Assembly: GCF_020382885.2 (NCBI RefSeq)
Contig: NC_058493.1
Coordinates: forward strand, 21,635,499 to 21,699,498
DNA: 64,000 nucleotides
Direction of reading: 5' to 3'
From: Scatophagus argus
Taxonomy: Eukaryota > Chordata > Actinopteri > Scatophagidae
Part shown: one piece after another, positions 6,790 through 51,430 of the stretch
Layout of the letters: each line of letters opens with the position of its first letter
Numbering within the stretch: position 1 is the stretch's first letter
The notes under the pieces: generated by a model
Databases searched by the model: none
What the model was told of the DNA's origin: nothing
What the model saw: the letters and a program-made list of their open reading frames with translations, nothing else
Translations under genes and position numbers: made by a program

Positions 6790-8655
6790 ATGTCATCTGA
6801 TAAAATAATCGGACCTGCCTTACCCCCAATGTTCATACAGGAGGAGAACGATAAAGATTCTGATAACGAAAAAGGATGTAAGTCGGTTATAAGACAGTAT
6901 ATCTTTTCGCATGGACTATAAGCTACCTTTACTTTCGAATGAATGCTATATAACTCAGTTAAAATTCGTATCAGGTTGCTTTTTCTTCTTGGTAATTCAT
7001 GCTTTTCTTCTCTCATCTTGTAGTCGTCGCTGGCCCCGCTTTGCCTCCCGGTTATAAACGGGGAGAGCCGTCGAGCTCCTCGGATGAGAGTGAAGAGGAG
7101 GTGGCGATCAAAAAAGCAAAAACAAGACACACAACTGCAGACAGATCTGCAGAAAAGTAGGTTGATTAATGGACTAAAAGTTATAGAAGTAAGTGTCTCA
7201 ATAGACAAAACAGTAACAAGGGTCTTTTGAACAGGGTAGGGAGTACAGTGGAACAAGAAGATGATGATGATGGTTTCTTTGGTCCAGCCCTGCCACCAGG
7301 ATTTAAGAAACAACAGGGTTCACCAGAAAGGTGAGCTCATCAATTCTATACTATATTTCAGTTTATGATACGTGGTGGAAGCAGTTAGTTAAAATAGCTA
7401 ATTATGAAAGCTGTAACCTTATAGTGTTCCCTCAGGCCACCTGTGCTGGGACCAGCTTTGCCTCCTGGGTTTCGCAGAGCAGCATACGAAGATGACGACG
7501 ATAAAGACGGTGAAGATAGAGAGGATTTCCCAGGGCCTGCCCTTCCTCCAGGCTACCAGGCTGAGTCCTCTAGCAGCGAGGATGAAGATGTGATTGGGCC
7601 CATGCCCTCTAAGGGGCCTGTTCAAGACTCTGTGGCTCTGGACTTTGAGCGTCGAGCGCGAAAGATGAGAGAGAAGCTGACACAAGACGTAAGTTCCCAT
7701 CTGCCCCCAGTTTTATCTGCGTAGTCAACACCATACAAACTTTTTCATCAAATGCAGACCTCTCAACAAGAAAAAAATGTTGAATGTAGAACACAGAAAC
7801 ACAGCAACAATATAAGTAAAATTGGTAAGGTTGAGCTTAGGTTTCCTTTTTCATGCATTTTAAAGTTTTTCTCCTCTGCTGTCTGAATTATTCCTCTGTG
7901 TATTTCTGTGTAAACAGGAAACTCCTGAGGTCCTGACCAGAGAAACATGGATGACAGAGCTCCCACCAGAACTGCAACACATTGGCTTGGGGGCTCGAAC
8001 TTTCAAGAAGAGGTCAGGTCCAGAGAATAAGGATCGCTCCATTTGGACGGATACGCCAGCGGACAGGGAGCGCAAGACTAGGGTAGTTATTGAAAATAAC
8101 TTATCCCTACACTTATCATTATTGTTATTATTATTATCATTATTATTATTATTAGCATTCACGTTTGTGGCCTATATATTACTTCCATGTATTTCATGAG
8201 TTTATTCTTGAGCAATAGGAACGCCTTGAGGGAAAGAAGAAGGGTGATGTGGGGAAAGATGATGTCCCACAACTCTCCCAGAAGGACTTGGAAATGGCAG
8301 AGAAAGTGTCTAAGTATAATGTAAGTGGTCTTCCCTCAACATACTTTTTCCCTAAATGTCCCAACATAGTATAAATGCCTGACGTAATGTGCATTTTAAA
8401 AGGGCTAAAATTTCTCTACCCACTCCTGATTATCAGGACACTAAACGCGCTGAGTCTCTGATGAGTTTGCACACGAAGAAGATGAAGGAGAAAGCAAAGG
8501 AGAAGGCAGACCAACCAGTGGAGAGGAGACCATTCGATCGAGAAGCAGACCTGCAAGTGAATCGATTTGATGATGCTCAAAAGCAGCGACTGCTGAAGAA
8601 ATCTCAGGAATTGAATACACGTTTCTCCCACAGCAAAGACCGAATGTTCCTGTAA
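6790..8655 (+). CDS. gpalpp1: GPALPP motifs-containing protein 1
   Basis: Seven coding exons: 6790-6877, 7024-7156, 7235-7330, 7436-7688, 7918-8082, 8219-8320, 8437-8655. All junctions keep frame, giving 351 aa (human about 340). The motif GPALPP appears five times: at the extreme N-terminus (IIGPALPPMF), in exon 2, in exon 3 (FFGPALPPGFKK) and twice in exon 4, followed by the variant IGPMPSKGP. Acidic serine tracts (SSSSDESEEEV, SSSSEDEDV) separate the motifs. The C-terminal half carries the conserved DUF3752-type region, with TWMTELPPEL, DRSIWTDTPADRERK, PFDREADLQVNRFDDAQK and ELNTRFSHSKDRMFL, and ends at the TAA. Molecular function of the family is poorly established; a nuclear role is only inferred from its composition. 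In human this gene also sits next to GTF2F2. Confidence 0.96.
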
Positions 8656-9272
8656 TTGTCATAATGTAAAAAAGGTGTTTGAATGTGCAGACTTCAAGTC
8701 ACAGTCTGGCTGGTGGCATTTTTGTGGAGGGTTTGTATAATATGATCAATGTTTCTATGGATGGTCATGTGTTAAACAAATGGACATAAAATGGAGTTGT
8801 ATGCTGGCCCAAGAGGTGACTAAAATGGACTTAAGACTACAAATACATGGCAGACGTGTCTATGTATGGGAGCTCATGTTGCTGACTGGGAGCAATGCTA
8901 CAGCATATGTTTCAATCAAAGCAGTAGCCATTGGAGCTTGTATTTTTCCAGGAGACACTTTACTAGGGCTGATGATATGAAAGAAAAGATACAAATAAAT
9001 GAAATATTTTTCCAACACTGATATACAGTTTACCAGGTTCTCTTTTGAGAATGTAGAATGTAAGAAATTTTGCTGTAAAATGCGTTGTTATGCTGTAGCG
9101 ATACAGCAGTGTCCAATATGCTTTTGCCAGTTTTCTTTAAGTTGATTAAACATTGGTTTTTAACCTTCCATGTGCATCTTTACTATTAAGCGTATTGGTC
9201 ACATATTGGTCCAAAGTTAAAGACGTTAAAGTGATATGAACTTTCAGAGTTGCCATACTGTCGTCTTTCTTT
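8656..9272 (+). other. gpalpp1 3' UTR and intergenic spacer
   Basis: This spacer follows the gpalpp1 stop codon. A canonical AATAAA is at 8994-8999, about 340 bp past the stop, and is the likely poly(A) signal. No other gene or repeat is visible. Confidence 0.6.
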
Positions 9273-9290
9273 TGCGCATGCGTATGGCGG
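9273..9290 (+). promoter_or_regulatory. gtf2f2 core promoter: NRF1-like and YY1-like sites
   Basis: tgcgcatgcg at 9273-9282 matches the NRF1 palindrome, and atggcgg at 9284-9290 matches the YY1 core. Both sit 40-55 bp upstream of the gtf2f2 ATG. This combination is typical of TATA-less housekeeping promoters. Confidence 0.6.
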
Positions 9291-9327
9291 TTGTGTCGAT
9301 AAGCTAGCAGAGGCATCATCTTAAAAC

Positions 9328-12300
9328 ATGTCAGAAAAAGGAGAAGTTGATTTAACTCGTGCCAAGCAGAATACTGGTGTTTGGCTTGTAAAGGTGCGTA
9401 TATAATCCTCTTCGTAACGCTAGTTCTCGGACTATAGGAACAGTTACTAATTAATAAACAACAAAGGCTAAGGTAATTTAGCATCTGTGCTTCAATGAAT
9501 AACCGTGCGTTGTAGCTAATGCTGGCTAAGTCAACTGTTAGTGAGCTAAATTAAACTGGAAACTACTCATATTATATTATTATTATTATGGGCATTGCGC
9601 CATAATCCGTTCATTTAAGCACAGATCATCTTTTGGCAACCAAATTAAACAAAAGGTGATGCAAGTAGTAGTAAAAGCGTCTGGCGTGAGGTGCACTCTG
9701 CATGGAGCAATGTTTGGTAACAGTTAGTAGGGAATTAATAACGGTTTACCTCACATGTTTTTCAAACCGTTTAAATTTAATGTCGTATTTTAGTGCCAAC
9801 ATTTGCAGAAATGAGAGTGAGTGAGGTTTCAGACACATAAGACACATAGCAGCGCTTAGATTAGTTTGGCATTGTTTGTTTAGAGATTTGGTCAATAGGC
9901 GTTGAAAACGACCGCACATGAAAGGGAGATCTCCAACATTTATGTTTACACCATCAGACCCTTCCACTTTCGTCAAGTAAATATCCATATTTCTCATGCA
10001 GGTGCCCAAATACCTCTCTCAGCAATGGGAAAAAGCGACTGGCAGAGGCGAGGTCGGGAAACTCAGAATATGCAAGTATGTGAAATGGTATCAGTGAAGT
10101 AGCAGAAGCCAGCCAGTTTAAGTTATTTGTGTGTTGATTGTGTATAAGTCAAGTGTATCAGTGCTCAGAATGTGACTGTACAACTAGAAGTGGAAGAGTG
10201 AAAACTTAGTGTGCTGATGGATGGTTGCTGATGATAAAATTACACAATTAGTGCTGCAAGCATGTCAAATTAAACTGCTTTGTTAATCTTGCAATTTCCA
10301 ATCAATTAATTCAAATGTTGCTCCTTTTTATCTCCAAGGAAAGGAAACCAAGGAAAAGCAGAGGTAAGTGCTGTCACTTACAAGGCCATGCACAGTGGAA
10401 ATATCTCGGTTAAATTTCATAGTCATTTTATTGGGATGCCATTCTTCTTTTACGGCCAAGCTTAAGGATGGACAACTTGTGGAAGAATAAAAATATCACC
10501 TGGGTTGGATTATTCTTTGCCTGTTGTGTATAAGAGGACCTCACATTAATTTCTGAGTCATTTTGCCTACATGTGGCAGTTCATTTTGGTTGCATATTGA
10601 ATTCTGCATATTTAAATGTAGTATGTCTTGGAGTTCATTGTTTTGAAAGAGACAATGTATGATAGGTAGCAAAACATAAATTAATTAGTATCTCACTTTT
10701 TGTTTATGGAATTTATTATTACATACTAAAACTATATATATATTATTTCTCTAGTCAAAGCCAGTCAAGTATGGTTCCTCATGCTGAATTCTATTGATGT
10801 GTGCATGTCCTCTTGTGCTGGTGTGCAGGACACAGGAACATATTAAACATGGATGTTACTCATCTTTACAGGTGTCTTTCACTTTGAACGAAGAGCTGAC
10901 TGTCATCGAGGGCTTAGAAGATAAGACAGTGTCTGCACCTCGTGAGCACCCGTTCACCATGCAGTCAGTGGGAGGTCAGACGCTGGCGGTCTTCACTGAG
11001 ACGTCATCAGGTGAATTTCTGTTTTCATCAGCCAAGTGTCCGCTTTGAATGCCTCCACTGCAAGATGAGGTGTTAATGACAATCCACAAATTGCATTTTA
11101 AGCTTTCTGTGATGTGAAATTTGCTAGAACCAAAAGGTATATTCTGTGTGGCCAGATGGTGGAGATGCCCAACCTTCTGCTCTTTGTACAGCTTGCTGTC
11201 TTCATGCACAGAATTTCTTTTGCCTGCCTTGCTTGTTTTTATGTGTTATGAACTCTAAACAGTGTGATGTTGTCCACAGTCCTATCAGAGTACACATAAG
11301 GAATGTAGTGTTTGGGAACAGAGGAGATCTGGTTTGTTGGAGATTTGTCTTTGTGCAGACTGATTTGTGTTTCTGTCTCTATCTGTAAGGGAATTTTATT
11401 TTTGGTGTTTGATCTTCTTTCAGTCATTTGTTTGTGGTTTGATTTTTTTCAGTCCACTGCAATACCCTCAGCAAAATGGGTATCTGATCAGGCACAATGG
11501 CGCCATTTGGAATTCCTTTAACATAGAGTAGATCAATATCAACACAAATCACTGATGAATTTGGAGTTGATTTAACTTTGTGCATGTGTTTCTTTGGTTT
11601 GGTTTGAACATCACAGCCTTGTCTGCCCTCTGAATGTGATGTAGGTGTTTTGTTGCTATGGGTGCTGGTGAGCTTGTGCTACTATGCCTTCTTTGGGATA
11701 CCAACTTGTGTGTGTGTATGTGTGTTTTAGGGCTGCACAGTCAAAATGTTTTTTTTTAACCATACAGACATTGAATAAATACATGAATCTTATTTTTCAA
11801 TGGAGATATGGCCAAGGGGGTAGCTACTAAAAAGGATGCACATAAGGCATCGCAACGAATAAATTTTAAATAAAAAGTTCAGTATTTGTGCAGCCCTGTT
11901 GTGTGTATTTGTGATTGGACAGGGTTTCTGTGCTTGCTTTTTGTAAGCGCATGCTTGCTTTTCTCATCCTCACGCGTGTGCACTCATCAGATTACACCGA
12001 GAACTTCTGTGTGATCAAAAGTTTTCGTCTGCGACTAAACCCTCGGTGTGGTTTTTATTGATCAATCCCCTCCTCCCTCCATCCCCTGTATTTTCATGTT
12101 TACCATCCCTCCCTCCCTTCCTGTAGGCCAGTCAGAAGAGAGATCTGATGGCAGCAGCTCAGGTTCGGGGGCGGGGGCAGGTCCAGGTGAGTCCTCTGTT
12201 TTTTGCCAGTGAGTGACAAAGTTGAACCACTAGGAATCAGACAGTGTCTGATATTTTTGTTACTAAATTTTCTTTGTAATAATACAAATACATGCTTGAG

Positions 12301-14457
12301 AAAGATGCATGTATTGGTATCAAAAGTGTCCTCACATAGCGCCCTGTTTTGCCTTGACTGGCCTTTTCTCTTTTTGAGCTCAATTGTACACTTCATTGGA
12401 GCATCTGCACTCAGTTGGTATCATCTTGGCTTGACAGTGGAAAAGAGAGTCTGTGGTTGAGAGGAGAGTGTTACCGGCTCGTGGGGATGGTTTTAGGTCC
12501 AGTTGTGACTTTGTGTTGGCAAAGATAATTAATGTCTGGCTGTTCTACATGTTAGTTTTGAACTGATTTTACTCTATAGAACACTGGCAAACCTCTCTCA
12601 AATTTACATATAAATAAGCTTTGACTGTGTGATAAATGGACTATTTGATACTTGATACCCTTTGAAGGTATTGGCCGATATACCCCAGTACTAAGTAGCA
12701 TCAAGACTTGTCCATTCAAACAATACATGCATTTTGGAAATCTTGTACCCAGATTGGAAAAAAAAGACTGTTTGCGTGGTTTTGATTACATCCAGACAAC
12801 ACAAGCATTCGTCAGTTTAAAGCTGCATGTGGCAGGTCGACTACCACATCAGCTACTGCCCATACAGCGTGGTGTGTCGAGCATGGCGTGTTTGACAGAA
12901 GCAGGCGGTTCTGCGTGCTGAGGTCCCACGAAAACATTTGAAAGGATGGCTATACTACACACCTGTGAGCAAATGAATGCCTCTGCTCACATGATGTGAA
13001 TGGAAAGAACTGGAAAAATTGGTATTGATATCACTATTAATTTAAGGTTATTGGTAACATACTTTTTTTTCTTTTTTTGGGAGAGGGTTTTTTTCTTTTG
13101 GTAATAACTGGAAATAATTTGGGAATAATAGTAAGAGCACACTTGATAAGACTTTCAGAAGCTGACCTTTCACTACTCTGACACATTTCTTTCAACTTTA
13201 GCAAAGAGTCTGGACTAAACTAGATGTTTACTAGCAAAATAAAACCACTTCCTGAGAGTACTGTTTTCTATACAAACATTATCCAGTCGTTCATTCATGG
13301 TGTCTTCTCTCATCCAACTTATATTAGGGTTTTAATTGGCTCTTCTCTCTCTTGTTTCTTGTTTTTTTAATAGATAAAATAGCCTTGGAGGGAGTGGTAG
13401 TTCAGAGAGCAGAGTGCAGGCCTGCTGTCAGTGAAAACTATATGAGGCTAAAGAAGTGAGTATTGAAAAGAAAAAAAAAAAAAAGAAATCCAAGGTTCAT
13501 TTGCACTATTTGGTGAACAGCAAACTTGACAACTTGGCAAATAAAGTAAATCTTATGTTCTCACAGGTTACAAATTGAGGAGTCCTCCAAGCCAATCAGG
13601 CTGTCACAACAGCTGGAAAATCCTGTCACCAACAACTACAAACCTGTGGCCAACCATACTTACAATGTAAGGAAAAAAAGTCCTATCCAGGATTGTTTGT
13701 TTACATTAATCCCCTCAGGTATTTTTTTTTTTTCATGCATTCAAATAAAATGTAGGCACACACTTTGTGCAGGCTACACATCTGACCAATACATTTAAGA
13801 GCACATATTGTTGATGTTATTATATATAATATTGTTATTATATATTTCACTTAATCACCACATATAATTGACATTACTGCTAAGCATATTGTTGATTACC
13901 CTAAGGATGACTTCCTTACCTCAAACAAATTTCTAGAGGAATTCATTGTATTCTTTAGAAAACATAGGTAGTACTTCACCTCTGTGAGGTGTATGCCTGT
14001 ATGTGATACCTGACTTGTGTCTTTTTACTTTTTGCTGCAGGTAGAGTATGAGAGGAAAAAGAAGGAGGAGGGCAAGAGAGCAAGAGCTGACAAACAGCAG
14101 GTGTTGGACATGTTGTTTTCTGCTTTTGAGAAGCACCAGTACTACAACATCAAAGACCTGGTGGATATCACCAAACAGCCTGTGGTAAGACTGAAGGGCA
14201 ACATGAGGGCTTTGGTGCAGATTTTTCTTGTGAGAATTTTTGATGATCTGCACTATGTGCAGTTATTATAGCTTTTGGTCACATAGATGAATAAAATGCT
14301 CTCATTCTATATTTGACATTTGTTCTTCTCCCAGATTTACTTAAAGGAAATTTTGCGTGATATTGGCGTCTACAATGTGAAGGGAACACACAAGAATACC
14401 TGGGAGCTCAAGCCAGAATACCGACATTACCAAGGCGAGGAAAAGACTGACGAATAA
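9328..14457 (+). CDS. gtf2f2: General transcription factor IIF subunit 2 (RAP30)
   Basis: RAP30 pairs with RAP74 to form TFIIF, which escorts RNA polymerase II to promoters. Coding exons: 9328-9393, 10002-10075, 10339-10363, 10872-11010, 12127-12186, 13374-13455, 13567-13666, 14041-14184, 14335-14457. Total is 813 nt, 270 aa; human is 249. The protein begins MSEKGEVDLTRAKQNTGVWL. It contains the N-terminal RAP74-dimerisation domain (SAPREHPFTMQSVGGQTLAV) and the C-terminal winged-helix DNA-binding domain (about residues 195-265: LDMLFSAFEKHQYYNIKDL, NTWELKPEYRHYQGEEK). The extra length comes almost wholly from the 60-nt exon at 12127. Exon 3 is only 25 nt. KCTD4, which lies inside a GTF2F2 intron in human, is not seen in these introns. 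Confidence 0.97.
12127..12186 (+). other. gtf2f2: gtf2f2 symmetric 60-nt Gly/Ser-rich exon
   Basis: The exon has a long pyrimidine tract ending ctgtag and a consensus donor gtgagt. It is phase 1-1 and exactly 60 nt, so it can be included or skipped without changing frame. It encodes a hydrophilic insert (SEERSDGSSSGSGAGAG core) between TETSS and DKIALEG, where the human protein reads directly SSSDKLSLEG. Inclusion in mRNA is inferred, not shown. Confidence 0.75.
12640..12720. repeat. Possible degenerate interspersed repeat in gtf2f2 intron
   Basis: gatacttgatacc and ggtattggccgatat resemble words from an abundant fish repeat family, but the copy is too decayed to delimit. The rest of this 1.2-kb intron shows nothing recognisable. 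Confidence 0.2.
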
Positions 14458-15745
14458 TTTCTGACCCACCTTTTGTTAGCCTACTGTCCAACATCTTGGT
14501 TGTACCTCGGAGCCCTCTCCTGATTTCTTTCCATTGGGTCTCAAAACACACTGGATCATAAGTTTGAGTTTTAGAGGGAGAGGTTGTTGTATCTCCTTGT
14601 TATTTTGTGGGAGACAAGAAATGGTACTGGAAAACTAATTGGGGTTTCACATTCAAGTATGCACTGTCTTTTCCTGGTGTATGTCACAGCTCCAGAACAC
14701 CCGTGAGGAAAAACCCATTTATATTTGAATTAGTTGTTCTACCCATCAGAGGCACAGGACATGGCACGCTGATTTTTAGTGTTGACATGTTTTAATACTC
14801 GGAAACAAGCACATCCAAAGGTAAACGTCAAATAGAGGAAGGATGTGACACAGGTAATGCCACTCACCACTGAGTGTGTTGAGTTCTTTTTCTAGACTTT
14901 TTATAATCTGGCTTTTTTTTTTTGGACATGACATGGTGCTTTTAAAAACACAACAGGTTTCTGCACTATGACATATTCAACCTGAACTTGCTTTGTCTGT
15001 TTTAAGTGCGGTACCATTGCTGTATCCCTTTCTAAATATGCTTCAGGTGTCTTCACATTAGCTCATTTTCACTGTAATTTTTAATTGTCTTATGCAATAA
15101 ATGTGCTTAGTAAATAAAACTAGAAATCCCATCTTGCAGTTGTATGTTTCCATGCACCAGTCAAGTTGCCGTTTACATCCATTTCTGTCCAGACTCACAA
15201 TACATGTAATGAATGATTGAGAGCCTCATCACATGGTGCAAAGACTAATCGCCTGAATATCAACAAAACCAGTCAGCTAGTGGTGGACCTACAATGCTTC
15301 AAATATGGATACCGCTGAAGAAGCTACAAATTCTAAAATGTGGATGCTTCACACATCTTCAGCCAGGAGGCGCAGTTTGAAGGTGGACACCCAAGATTAA
15401 TGTCACCAATGAAGTATCTGACCAAATGTGAAATATGTTCACAATCTCCCCCTTCTGCTTTTGATGGTGTTGACTAATGAACAGAAGAGTGTTTTTTTTG
15501 CAGAGTATTATGATGTCACGGTGAAGTTGACCTTTGGCCTTTTTGGATCTTAAATGTGAAATTTTAACAGTTTAACAATTAAGGTGACCTCTGCATCACT
15601 GAACGCCTCACATGAAACAGGGCATTAACCAACCACATTCGCCTGGTTTTTGAATCAAATCCTGTAGAATCTGCAGTATGACCCTATATTGCTCTGTTAA
15701 CCTGTTATCACTTAATGTTTAAATAAAGGTGTTACTTTTCATACA
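14458..15745 (+). other. gtf2f2 3' UTR with several poly(A) signals
   Basis: After the TAA there is no coding exon. AATAAA hexamers stand at 15096-15101, 15113-15118 and 15722-15727, so short and long 3' UTRs are possible. The last one sits close to the predicted 3' end of the minus-strand snoRNA host unit, so the two transcripts converge tail to tail. Confidence 0.55.
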
Positions 15746-16402
15746 ATGTAATGTGTACATTATACTTTAATTTACCACTGCTTCAAACCATTAGTACTCT
15801 GTACAGTATTTAAGTCAATGGTTCAGACTTATGTTTGCTTTAACTGCATTCTGGTAGAGTAGCTAAAAATACAGTTTGAAATGCTTATTTTAACTTTCAA
15901 CTTTAATCACACGGTTCAACATCATGCTAAAAGTTCAAACTTTACAAGAATGCTTCCATACTGAAAAACTATTTCTTTAAAGACAAAGTAGCATCAGTTT
16001 GACATAGTTCATGTACAGCGTGCCAACTGATAGCATTGTCATATGCAAGAAAAACTGCTGGCAGATTTAAAAACTGCTAGTGATAAAATACAGCAAAGAG
16101 TATGTTTGGCATCACATGAAACTGGACAAAAATAACCCATTGGTCCAGCTTCCCTCAGGTGTTTTCAGTGCCTTGCTTATTACCTGCAAGCAAAAATATG
16201 GAAAAAAAAAATAAATAAAAAATTAGGGTGCATCACAGCACACAATGGCACACCGTTACAGACTAGAACGTTAGTTTGATGCACCAGTATGATCAACATC
16301 TACTGTCTTAAGTCCAGAAGCAGTATGCAGGAAATAATGTTCAAAATTTAGAGGGTAAAATAAAAAAAATAATCACACTTAAAATCTGAAATTGGAAAGC
16401 TT

Positions 16403-16540
16403 ACATGTATTCCTCAATTCAATCCGTGCTGCTATAGAATGTAGCAGTCAGAAAGCGCAAGGAAGCTCATTTTAGCATCTCTGTGCAAACCCAGAAGCCA
16501 ATGATGCCTGCTTCAGGTCTATCAGTGGATGCAAACTGAC
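16403..16540 (-). ncRNA. H/ACA-box snoRNA candidate A
   Basis: The minus-strand sequence folds as two hairpins. The 5' hairpin closes with GCATC/GATGC (16475-16532) around an inner GAAGC/GCTTC stem. The hinge reads AAATGA, fitting the H box ANANNA. The 3' hairpin closes with CTTCCT/AGGAAT and has an inner CTGCTA/TAGCAG stem, leaving an internal loop with TGCGCTTTCTGA on one side and CGGATTGAATTG on the other. ACA at 16406-16408 is followed by three nucleotides to the presumed 3' end. It lies in the last intron of the host unit. By synteny it may be the fish SNORA31, which I could not confirm by alignment. Confidence 0.72.
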
Positions 16541-16785
16541 GCCAACTCAGACAACATTATAAGTGCTCACCTGCAAGAGCGTCGCTGAAACAGCTGCTGA
16601 AAAATCTCCCCAGGTTCATCTCCAACCTTGAGACTGGAAAAGGGAGGAATACATTAATAGAGGCTCTTTACAAAATGGTATCTATTCACATAATAGTATA
16701 CAGAAATAAAAAGGTTATGCGTTTAGAAGCAAGTGTTTCAATATGAAGCAGTTCAGATGAGCTACAAGTTAATCAGATGTTTTTG

Positions 16786-16922
16786 ATTTATCCTCCCCTA
16801 TTCAATCCGAGACGCCATGGAAGTGAGGCGGGCAGAAAGCGCAGGGACATTTAATATTGCATCTGAAATAATAAAACCCAAGATATCTCACGGCAGAGAG
16901 CCCAGGCTGTCAAAGATGCATG
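16786..16922 (-). ncRNA. H/ACA-box snoRNA candidate B, paralogue of A
   Basis: It has the same architecture as candidate A. The 5' hairpin is closed by GCATCT/AGATGC (16859-16919). The hinge ATATTA fits ANANNA. The 3' hairpin has a TCCC/GGGA outer stem and shares both pocket strands with A (TGCGCTTTCTG and CGGATTGAAT) although stems and loops differ. That pattern suggests selection on the guide pocket. The terminal box appears to be ATA instead of ACA, a tolerated variant. It lies in the intron upstream of the exon 16571-16633. Confidence 0.66.
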
Positions 16923-17339
16923 TTGTGACCAGACTTGATCGGTAAAACCTAAGCGCACGTTTCCACAACACTTTACATACATTTCTGTACATGGCTTGAT
17001 GCAGACAGCGGGAGCCCTTTTCTCAGAAGTAATCATCCTGCTATGGCAGACTGTTGTGTTGAAACAGCACTGTCATTACTGAGACTTTCTGCAGAAGCTC
17101 AAACACAGCCATCATCCTCCATCTGGCTCATACAGGTGTCCGCCACACTGCACATGATCCGCTAGGGTAATGGAGGAGAAGAAGGGTTATTTTAGGTACA
17201 GCTTATATAAAGCAGAGACTTGGTTAAATTCAGTCCAGTCAACATGGTGCACTTTCAAGGCCAGGTTTCTAGAGTCATAGCTCCATTTCTGACACAACAG
17301 CACATTAACACAAGTTACACAAGCTGTCAACATTAAAAA

Positions 17340-17372
17340 CACAAAAAAACTAAAAAAAAAAAAAAAAAAAAA
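17340..17372. repeat. Poly(A) run
   Basis: An A homopolymer of about 20 with short interruptions, in the first intron of the snoRNA host unit. Around it (17040-18350) I see no further clear exon or snoRNA. Confidence 0.6.
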
Positions 17373-18476
17373 CAAGTTATCCACAGCTGTAGGACAAACT
17401 GACAGCACCTCTTCAAATTGGCACTATTACTGCAGCATATAACCAACATATCTGCTGTAACATTAGTTCAGAAGTATTAGACTGTTGAATACATATTCTA
17501 CTACTTGAGACAAAGTTACTGATCGGCTATCAGCCGTAAAATGTAACTGAAACACGTGTATTCAGGTCTTGTACTTAGAGGAACTTGCTCTTCAGTATTT
17601 CCACTTTTAACTTTATAATTGTACTTCGCTACAGCTCAGAGGCAAATTTAGTACATCTTCAGAGAAACCCTTCCTGCCCAAAGAAAACTAGTCTGGTGAT
17701 GTTTTGATTGCAGGTCTTATACAAGTAGTGAAACATTTTTACAGTTGGGTGTTGCTGCTTATAACTTCTATCTATCTATCTTAAGTCATGGAAACTGAGA
17801 ACTCTTACTCCACCATCCAGCCATGACTGCACTAAGGAGTAACTGGGGAGCGATGAACTTATTCTTGCTTTATGCCTTTGTACAGCGAGCCAACGTGGGT
17901 TTATAAAGCTAACAAGTTATAATAGCATTACCTACTGTACTAACTAATACAACTCATTATCCATCAGCTGCGGACAGCCACAACACACTAATAAACACCA
18001 GTTTCCCATTTCACCCCCTGAAACCCTAAGATTAAGACATTTACTGCTAGCTAACGCTACATGTGATAGCAATGAAGCATTTCCGGTGCAATGCTAAATT
18101 TTGTCTGTTAAAATGTGTTCTCCCTGCCTGAAAAACCCCTACTGGACCTTATTTTGGTGACATGTATGACTGATCTAATTCAGTAATTTAAGTGTTACAC
18201 GGGCTAATGTTGAAATTCACCGAAACTGTCTCAAAAGGGATTGAAACGTTGATAGAAAATGGCACCACCTAATTCACACGTGTCCGCAGACCACCACGAC
18301 TCTAAACCCTCCGTCAACGGTTAAGTTTGCTTCTCTTAACAGTGAGAGATGTGGTATACTTACACCAGAGCATGGCGGTGGAGATTTCTGAACCAACGAG
18401 GCTGTTTTGCATTTTATATTTAAGATGATTTCCACGCCTTAAACATCCACCATCTGCACAAAGTGGGTGAAAAGAG

Positions 18477-18525
18477 CGAGTGACGCGTGGCTTCCAGATT
18501 AAATAGGTTACCGTTCTGACTCATT
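18477..18525 (-). promoter_or_regulatory. TOP-type promoter of snoRNA host unit
   Basis: On the minus strand a TATTTAAT box (18498-18505) is followed 29 bp later by CTCTTTTC (18469-18476), the spacing and pyrimidine start expected of a 5'-TOP gene. An AP-1-like TGACTCA palindrome lies at 18517-18523. TOP genes are usually controlled through mTOR/LARP1 at translation; that is family knowledge, not shown here. Confidence 0.55.
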
Positions 18526-18539
18526 TCCGCCCTCCTGAG

Positions 18540-19440
18540 GTCAAATGGGAACGTTTATTTACATTGTCGCCCTCTGTTGTTCACAGCATAATTCATGTTA
18601 CCACAAATAAAAGTGTTTACTTTTTAAACCATTTAAACCACCCCCCGTGTAAAACGATGTTAATGCTTTCATCAGTCTTCGATGCAAATAACATTTTGCC
18701 TTGTAGCTCAAAAATGTTATTTTAACAAATTTTGAATCTGGATCAGCTTTATTGGCCGTGTGTAGATAGAAGGAATGTGACTCCGGTTTGTCGTGCTTTC
18801 AGTGCAGGCTAACGAACGACAGGAAACGGATTGAACCTGGCATAGTTTACAGCTAAAAACAAATAAAGCTGAACAAAGATGAGTGAAACATTTACCACTA
18901 CATCCATATTATCTCTATAGGTTACATGAAACTGTAATTTCCCATTCATGGGACTAACAAAAGATTATCTTATCTTAAATAAGTTTATCTACAGTAGGAT
19001 CTACAGGTGCTTCAGGATTTATTTGGCAATGATGATATGTAGGTCACACGTTAAAATAAAAAGTCTGTATTTTTACTTTAAACGCTTAATGACATGCATG
19101 AATTTTAAATATGCCAAAGTCAACTTAAGCCAGTGTTATGTAAACCAGTGCAGTCAACACAGTTTCACTTAGTGTCAGTCTATTAATTGTGGCGATGTTA
19201 CAGCTGTATAGCGGCAACAATGAAGCTCAAACAAAAAAAAGGCCTATTGAGTAGTTTAAAAGAAACAAACGGGCGAAAACAAAACGTTAACTCGAGGGCG
19301 CGTTAAATGCGGAACATAAGACAAACACGCATGTGCACAGCGCGCGCGCTCGCCCGACTCCCCATCCAGGGCTGTGAGTTGAGGAGGTGCAGCACTTCTT
19401 AATTGGACTCCGCTTGTTTAAGTGGTCCTTCCTCCATCAG
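18540..19440. other. Intergenic spacer between host unit and tanc1
   Basis: Mostly AT-rich, without recognisable exons. At about 18740-18765 the phrase gatcagctttattggcc matches a frequent fish repeat word. A short GC-rich block (19300-19345, with gcgcgcgcgctcgcccgactcc-like composition) precedes the tanc1 5' exon and probably belongs to its promoter. Confidence 0.4.
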
Positions 19441-19494
19441 CCTCCTGTGGATTTACGTGAAGCCATGCAGGCACCCACGAAGACTTAAGAACAG
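19441..19494 (+). other. tanc1: Probable tanc1 5' UTR exon with a short uORF
   Basis: The sequence ends gaacag followed by the donor gtaaat at 19495. It contains ATG CAG...TAA at 19465-19488, a seven-residue upstream ORF. The next exon (from 19765) carries the main start. The 5' boundary of this exon is a guess. Confidence 0.45.
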
Positions 19495-19793
19495 GTAAAT
19501 TAAACTGAGGCTTCCAATTTAGGATGACATCGCGTTTTTTTGTGTGTGATTACCCTTATGTGCGCTAATGCTTAATGGGAAGAATGGCTCATTGTTTAAG
19601 ACTAAATAGTTATCATAGTCTGAAAAAAAAACAACCAAAAAAAAAAAAACCCAGCAATTAATTCTGCTTCCCCAGCAGCCGAATTAAGAAATAACAGTGA
19701 GGGTAATGGTGCCTGAAATGATGTGTTCCTAATTCAAATTAACATTTTGCTTAGTCTTCCACAGGCGGTAGATAGTGAAGCAACAGCCCAGCT

Positions 19794-51430
<31,637 letters not shown>

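Follow-up and report, generated by a model that had tools for sequence, protein, structure and literature searches.

The window analysed here, the whole 64-kb stretch of Scatophagus argus DNA (64,000 nucleotides), holds at 15760–18525 a unit that was read on both strands and that contains a gene candidate on the minus strand. Its neighbours and the candidate itself are arranged as follows.

2.3–2.8 kb, minus strand: helicase piece, presumably of ERCC3
8383–8655, plus strand: C-terminal open frame with a DUF3752 match (7.7e-16), which we take to be GPALPP1
14014–14457, plus strand: last two exons of GTF2F2, open frames, TFIIF_beta matches (4e-12 and 1.9e-11)
15760–18525, minus strand: the gene candidate
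33.9 kb onward: AAA-domain gene (domain match), presumably TANC1 (TANC-like)
55.4–61.3 kb, minus strand: gene with WD40 and SAM domain matches, presumably WDSUB1

The candidate is placed tail-to-tail with GTF2F2, which runs on the plus strand and ends at about 14457; 3' of the GTF2F2 exons, AATAAA occurs at 15096 and 15722 on the same strand. In other vertebrates, TPT1 and GTF2F2 run towards each other. The candidate takes up the position of TPT1, beside GTF2F2 and with GPALPP1 farther on. In cat the order is SLC25A30, TPT1, GTF2F2, KCTD4, GPALPP1 and NUFIP1 (PMC10969784), and in chicken TPT1, KCTD4, SLC25A30 and GTF2F2 are found in one 1-Mb bin, in which the genes are unsorted and GPALPP1 is not included (PMC7402339).

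Three further observations concern the surroundings. The first is that the longest stop-to-stop frame in 8656–20984 is 134 amino acids, i.e. no KCTD4-sized frame, though cat and chicken pair KCTD4 with GTF2F2; KCTD4 may have been lost or moved in the lineage of the window. The second is that within 18500–64000 the AAA and WD40/SAM genes stand where tetrapods have the SLC25A30 flank of TPT1, which suggests that a rearrangement had its breakpoint upstream of the promoter of the host. The third is a pair of plus-strand segments, 23081–23495 and 43757–44004, whose translations, in partly different frames, share ..HAW..LCTYCF..FKF.TTDLI; they are apparently copies of a dispersed repeat.

From its start to its 3' end, the candidate has the following parts, all on the minus strand.

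18499–18505: TATA-like box TATTTAA (sequence motif)
18466–18476: TOP-type start CTCTTTTCACC, with C18474 or C18476 as the likely first base
18364–18474: predicted exon 1, 111 nt, donor GGT/GTAAGT
16981–17161: predicted exon 2, 181 nt, acceptor CTCCTCCATTACCCTAG and donor AAT/GTATGT, moderate scores
16786–16921: second SNORA31 (copy 2), within predicted intron 2 (score 39.5 bits, E 0.0012 over 64 kb)
16571–16633: predicted exon 3, 63 nt, acceptor CCCTTTTCCAG and donor CAG/GTGAGC
16403–16534: first SNORA31 (copy 1), within predicted intron 3 (score 74.7 bits, E 8.4e-12 over 64 kb)
About 15760–16183: predicted last exon, ATTAAA signals beginning at 15907 and 15771

An earlier note on this DNA had placed TATTTAA 29 bp ahead of a CTCTTTTC start, and this is indeed the distance from the box (18505–18499) to the C at 18476; counted from the first base of TATTTAA to the C of CTTTTC (18474), it is 31 bp. 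By sequence the start is of the TOP type, with a C followed by a pyrimidine run. The three 250-base bins of 18250–18999 have CpG observed/expected ratios of 0.83, 0.90 and 0.71, compared with 0.41 across the 64-kb window, and this CpG richness gives independent support for a promoter. In human and mouse, Tpt1 is tabulated with a TATA box and with GCCTTTTCC as its start (Perry 2005, PMC554972, Table 3); the same source also gives a CTTTTCC start for mammalian Tpt1. The start of the unit, CTCTTTTCA, equals the mammalian initiator GCCTTTTCC at six of nine positions (PMC554972). In zebrafish, the output of snoRNAs is tracked better by C-start than by purine-start initiation (PMC6954239).

The TATA/TOP pair was rejected as stand-alone evidence. 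A loose TATA-plus-pyrimidine-start pattern has four matches in the 64-kb window, compared with a mean of 0.9 (range 0–3) in 30 simulated windows, and at least three of the four are therefore unrelated to the proposed start. Separately, a CpG-rich segment (observed/expected 1.05) at 19250–19499 on the plus strand ends in CAG/GTAAAT at about 19494; it may be exon 1 of the adjoining gene, divergent to the promoter of the SNORA31 host and at most about 1 kb away.

As in the earlier note, GT-AG exons can be drawn on the minus strand. Four are predicted, and three of their six splice sites are strong according to a simple frequency matrix. With this matrix, donor 16570 ranks first of 198 GTs, acceptor 16633 second, behind a poly-T site, and acceptor 16183 third. 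The other three are moderate, namely donors 16980 (6.0) and 18363 (5.8) and acceptor 17161 (6.9, rank 7), and some unused sites outscore them, e.g. donor 16404 (7.5) at the 3' end of copy 1. The predicted introns measure 1202, 347 and 387 nt, the second being 16980–16634 and the third 16570–16184; the snoRNAs lie 59 nt (predicted intron 2) and 36 nt (predicted intron 3) from the donor. The predicted spliced RNA is 779 nt long.

The snoRNAs were identified by a scan of 4227 Rfam families over the full 64-kb window. At E values up to 0.5 there are two matches, and both are to SNORA31 (RF00322) on the minus strand of the unit. The gathering threshold of RF00322 is 40 bits; copy 1 exceeds it and copy 2 falls 0.5 bit below, so that with the curated Rfam cut-offs copy 1 alone is reported in the window. 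The earlier note had listed two intronic H/ACA candidates, had named SNORA31 as a family to test for one of them and had made a failure of both covariance-model scores one ground for refuting its proposal. Copy 1 passes this comparison, both candidates give covariance-model matches to SNORA31, and SNORA31 is the best match of each.

The boxes of the two copies, read by eye against the pattern ANANNA plus ACA three bases from the end, are not equally preserved. Copy 1 has the H box AAATGA and the 3' end ACATGT with its ACA; copy 2 has the H box ATATTA and the 3' end ATAAAT, in which the position of ACA reads AUA. AUA is a variant of the ACA box. The z-scores of fold stability against shuffles separate neither snoRNA well from shuffled sequence (copy 1: whole −1.55, hairpins −1.68 and −2.07), and the fold of copy 2 is no more stable than that of shuffles (whole −0.28, hairpins −1.45 and −0.58). 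In a blastn comparison of the two snoRNA regions, the sole significant match is 54 nt long (76%, E 4.6e-6); as the copies can barely be aligned outside the 3' half, their introns are no longer alike.

The guide pockets were matched to 18S and 28S rRNA sequences. We take GTGCATTTATCAG to begin at 18S position 213, which presumably puts U218 between GTGCA and TATCAG, and we take AATTCAAUGAAGCGC to be the 28S U3713 site. Against these sequences, the 5' hairpin of copy 1 carries CTGATA and TGCAC, which match the flanks of 18S U218, and its 3' hairpin carries GCGCTT and TTGAATT, which match the 28S U3713 site. In copy 2 the 28S pocket is present (GCGCTT and TTGAAT) and both halves of the 18S guide are gone. 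Human SNORA31B lies inside a TPT1 intron. It is located at 13q14.13 in the same direction as TPT1 (PMC6028756), and two SNORA31 copies at the locus are thus common to the window and human. The host of human SNORA31 is TPT1 and its targets are 18S U218 and 28S U3713 (PMC3766210). A search of viral contigs for rRNA, with two exact patterns, gave no match.

All 16 model pairs of the 3' hairpin can form in copy 1; in copy 2 two are broken and 14 form. At three stem pairs the copies differ in both partners, with U-A in one and C-G in the other, so that pairing is compensated; for this comparison the row of copy 2 was placed by hand from the covariance-model alignment. Such a pattern fits an old duplicate in which the 28S half would have remained under selection.

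No ORF of the predicted 779-nt RNA exceeds 40 codons, a length that is reached or surpassed in 265 of 500 shuffles; the predicted RNA thus has no long ORF, as expected of a noncoding host. With the human TCTP protein sequence as the query, tblastn remains at chance level in the 64-kb window (best E 2.1), in the 6.5-kb region 14501–21000 (best E 0.54, outside the unit) and inside the unit itself (E 2.1 at 15914–15949 on the plus strand, E 3.1 at 16192–16133 on the minus strand). The last exons of GTF2F2 were recovered by the same program at 2.8e-36 (14077–14451). Of the 21 minus-strand open pieces that reach 30 residues, 10 were compared with Pfam, and these match no family. Local alignments on both strands were no better, 169 of 200 simulated queries scoring as high as the human TPT1 CDS and 47 of 200 as high as its 3' UTR. 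A 12-base match to this 3' UTR, GGACTTAAGACA, had been seen by eye and was dropped, since it does not yield the best alignment there. By these searches the unit does not encode TCTP, and the statement of the earlier note that no TCTP exon is visible holds throughout them.

Human TPT1 has six exons, whereas four are predicted in the unit. This difference, together with the lack of any TPT1 sequence found in the unit, would suit a noncoding SNORA31 host that predates tpt1 or has an independent origin and that was always a separate neighbour of it, tpt1 itself having moved or been lost in the lineage. We regard such a host as unlikely. Human SNORA31 is hosted by TPT1 (PMC3766210) and SNORA31B runs the way of TPT1 (PMC6028756), the TATA/TOP promoter type is common to the unit and mammalian Tpt1 (PMC554972), and no second host stands beside TPT1 in the gene lists of cat (PMC10969784) and chicken (PMC7402339), which may omit noncoding genes. 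An unrelated host gene had been the other reading offered by the earlier note; the position and orientation of the unit, its promoter class and the presence of SNORA31 in two copies now speak against such a gene.

Decay may also have gone further, leaving a dead locus in which an untranscribed tpt1 pseudogene carries snoRNA fossils. Copy 2, which is under the gathering score and without the 18S pocket and ACA, could be taken for such a fossil. Nevertheless, copy 1 retains both pockets, the H box and ACA, the pairs in copy 2 are compensatory, CpG is retained across the promoter region and splice signals, three of six strong, lie on either side of both snoRNAs; a dead locus is quite improbable. 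An outright loss of TCTP in the lineage, with no duplicate and with the snoRNA part left behind, agrees with the absence of TCTP from the 64-kb window by tblastn but is scarcely credible, since TCTP is described as strongly conserved and as expressed ubiquitously throughout the eukaryotes (PMC3337558), which makes its loss without a second copy improbable.

The reading that we favour, and that the sequence makes probable, is a TOP-type noncoding snoRNA host derived from a former tpt1 locus whose protein has been lost. In one of its two readings, the earlier note had derived such a host from a tpt1 duplicate of the teleost genome duplication. The core of that reading, the origin from tpt1, has gained from the SNORA31 matches, two copies, the TATA/TOP promoter and the position by GTF2F2 and GPALPP1. 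What counts against it is that the searches found no similarity to TPT1 itself, that four exons are predicted where human TPT1 has six, that three splice sites are moderate and that copy 2 is weak in score, ACA box and fold; the part played by the genome duplication stays tentative. In the favoured tpt1-derived host, RNA polymerase II would start at CTTTTC, approximately 30 bp below the TATA box, and the host transcript would be spliced, its exonic RNA being noncoding and presumably short-lived. Both SNORA31 RNAs would be trimmed from introns 2 and 3. Copy 1 would then serve as a pseudouridylation guide for 18S U218 and 28S U3713, and copy 2, the diverged sister, for 28S U3713 alone.

The unit would sit at the ancestral seat of TPT1, given that it adjoins GTF2F2 convergently, shares the promoter class and likewise carries SNORA31 twice. 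Most likely, the coding exons of tpt1 were lost to decay, whereas the promoter, splicing and snoRNAs stayed under selection, and another tpt1 would survive elsewhere. Conceivably, although we put this forward with less than even confidence, the teleost genome duplication split a composite TPT1 gene: one copy would have kept the protein, and the copy in the window would have become a coding-free rRNA-modification gene with a second SNORA31 that guides 28S only, the small RNA having kept the duplicate alive.

The snoRNAs act here as a molecular label that names the lost gene although coding similarity was not found. If the favoured reading is true, a duplicate can owe its survival to an intronic small RNA, and a route to more such genes would be to look for snoRNAs at conserved positions that lack the host protein. 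SNORA31 is also medically relevant, in that an association of human variants with herpes simplex encephalitis has been reported (Lafaille 2019, as described in PMC12205218).

Several known systems can be compared with the unit. The tetrapod TPT1 (TCTP) gene is similar in its SNORA31, present in two copies, in its TATA box and TOP start and in its neighbours GTF2F2 and GPALPP1. It differs in that no TCTP coding exon was found in the unit, KCTD4 is not seen and an AAA-domain gene is at the SLC25A30 side. Noncoding TOP snoRNA hosts are already known, gas5 and U17HG among them (PMC554972). GAS5, U17HG and UHG resemble the unit in their TOP start, intronic snoRNAs and lack of a significant ORF, and in splicing, which is predicted for the unit; unlike these, the unit stands in the place of a coding gene, one that in human hosts the same snoRNA. 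No title among the matches listed in the open-access literature deals with a fish gene hosting SNORA31, or with tpt1 in that role, which is not proof of absence. As for lncRNAs derived from coding genes, those that arose from duplicated and then pseudogenised genes are far harder to quantify, and the word 'snoRNA' is absent from the main text of the source (Hezroni 2017, PMC5577775). The lncRNA fossils of coding genes resemble the unit in that the coding potential is gone and transcription is presumably kept, whereas the element retained in the unit is an intronic snoRNA. The unit would thus unite two known kinds of gene: noncoding snoRNA hosts and lncRNA fossils of coding genes.
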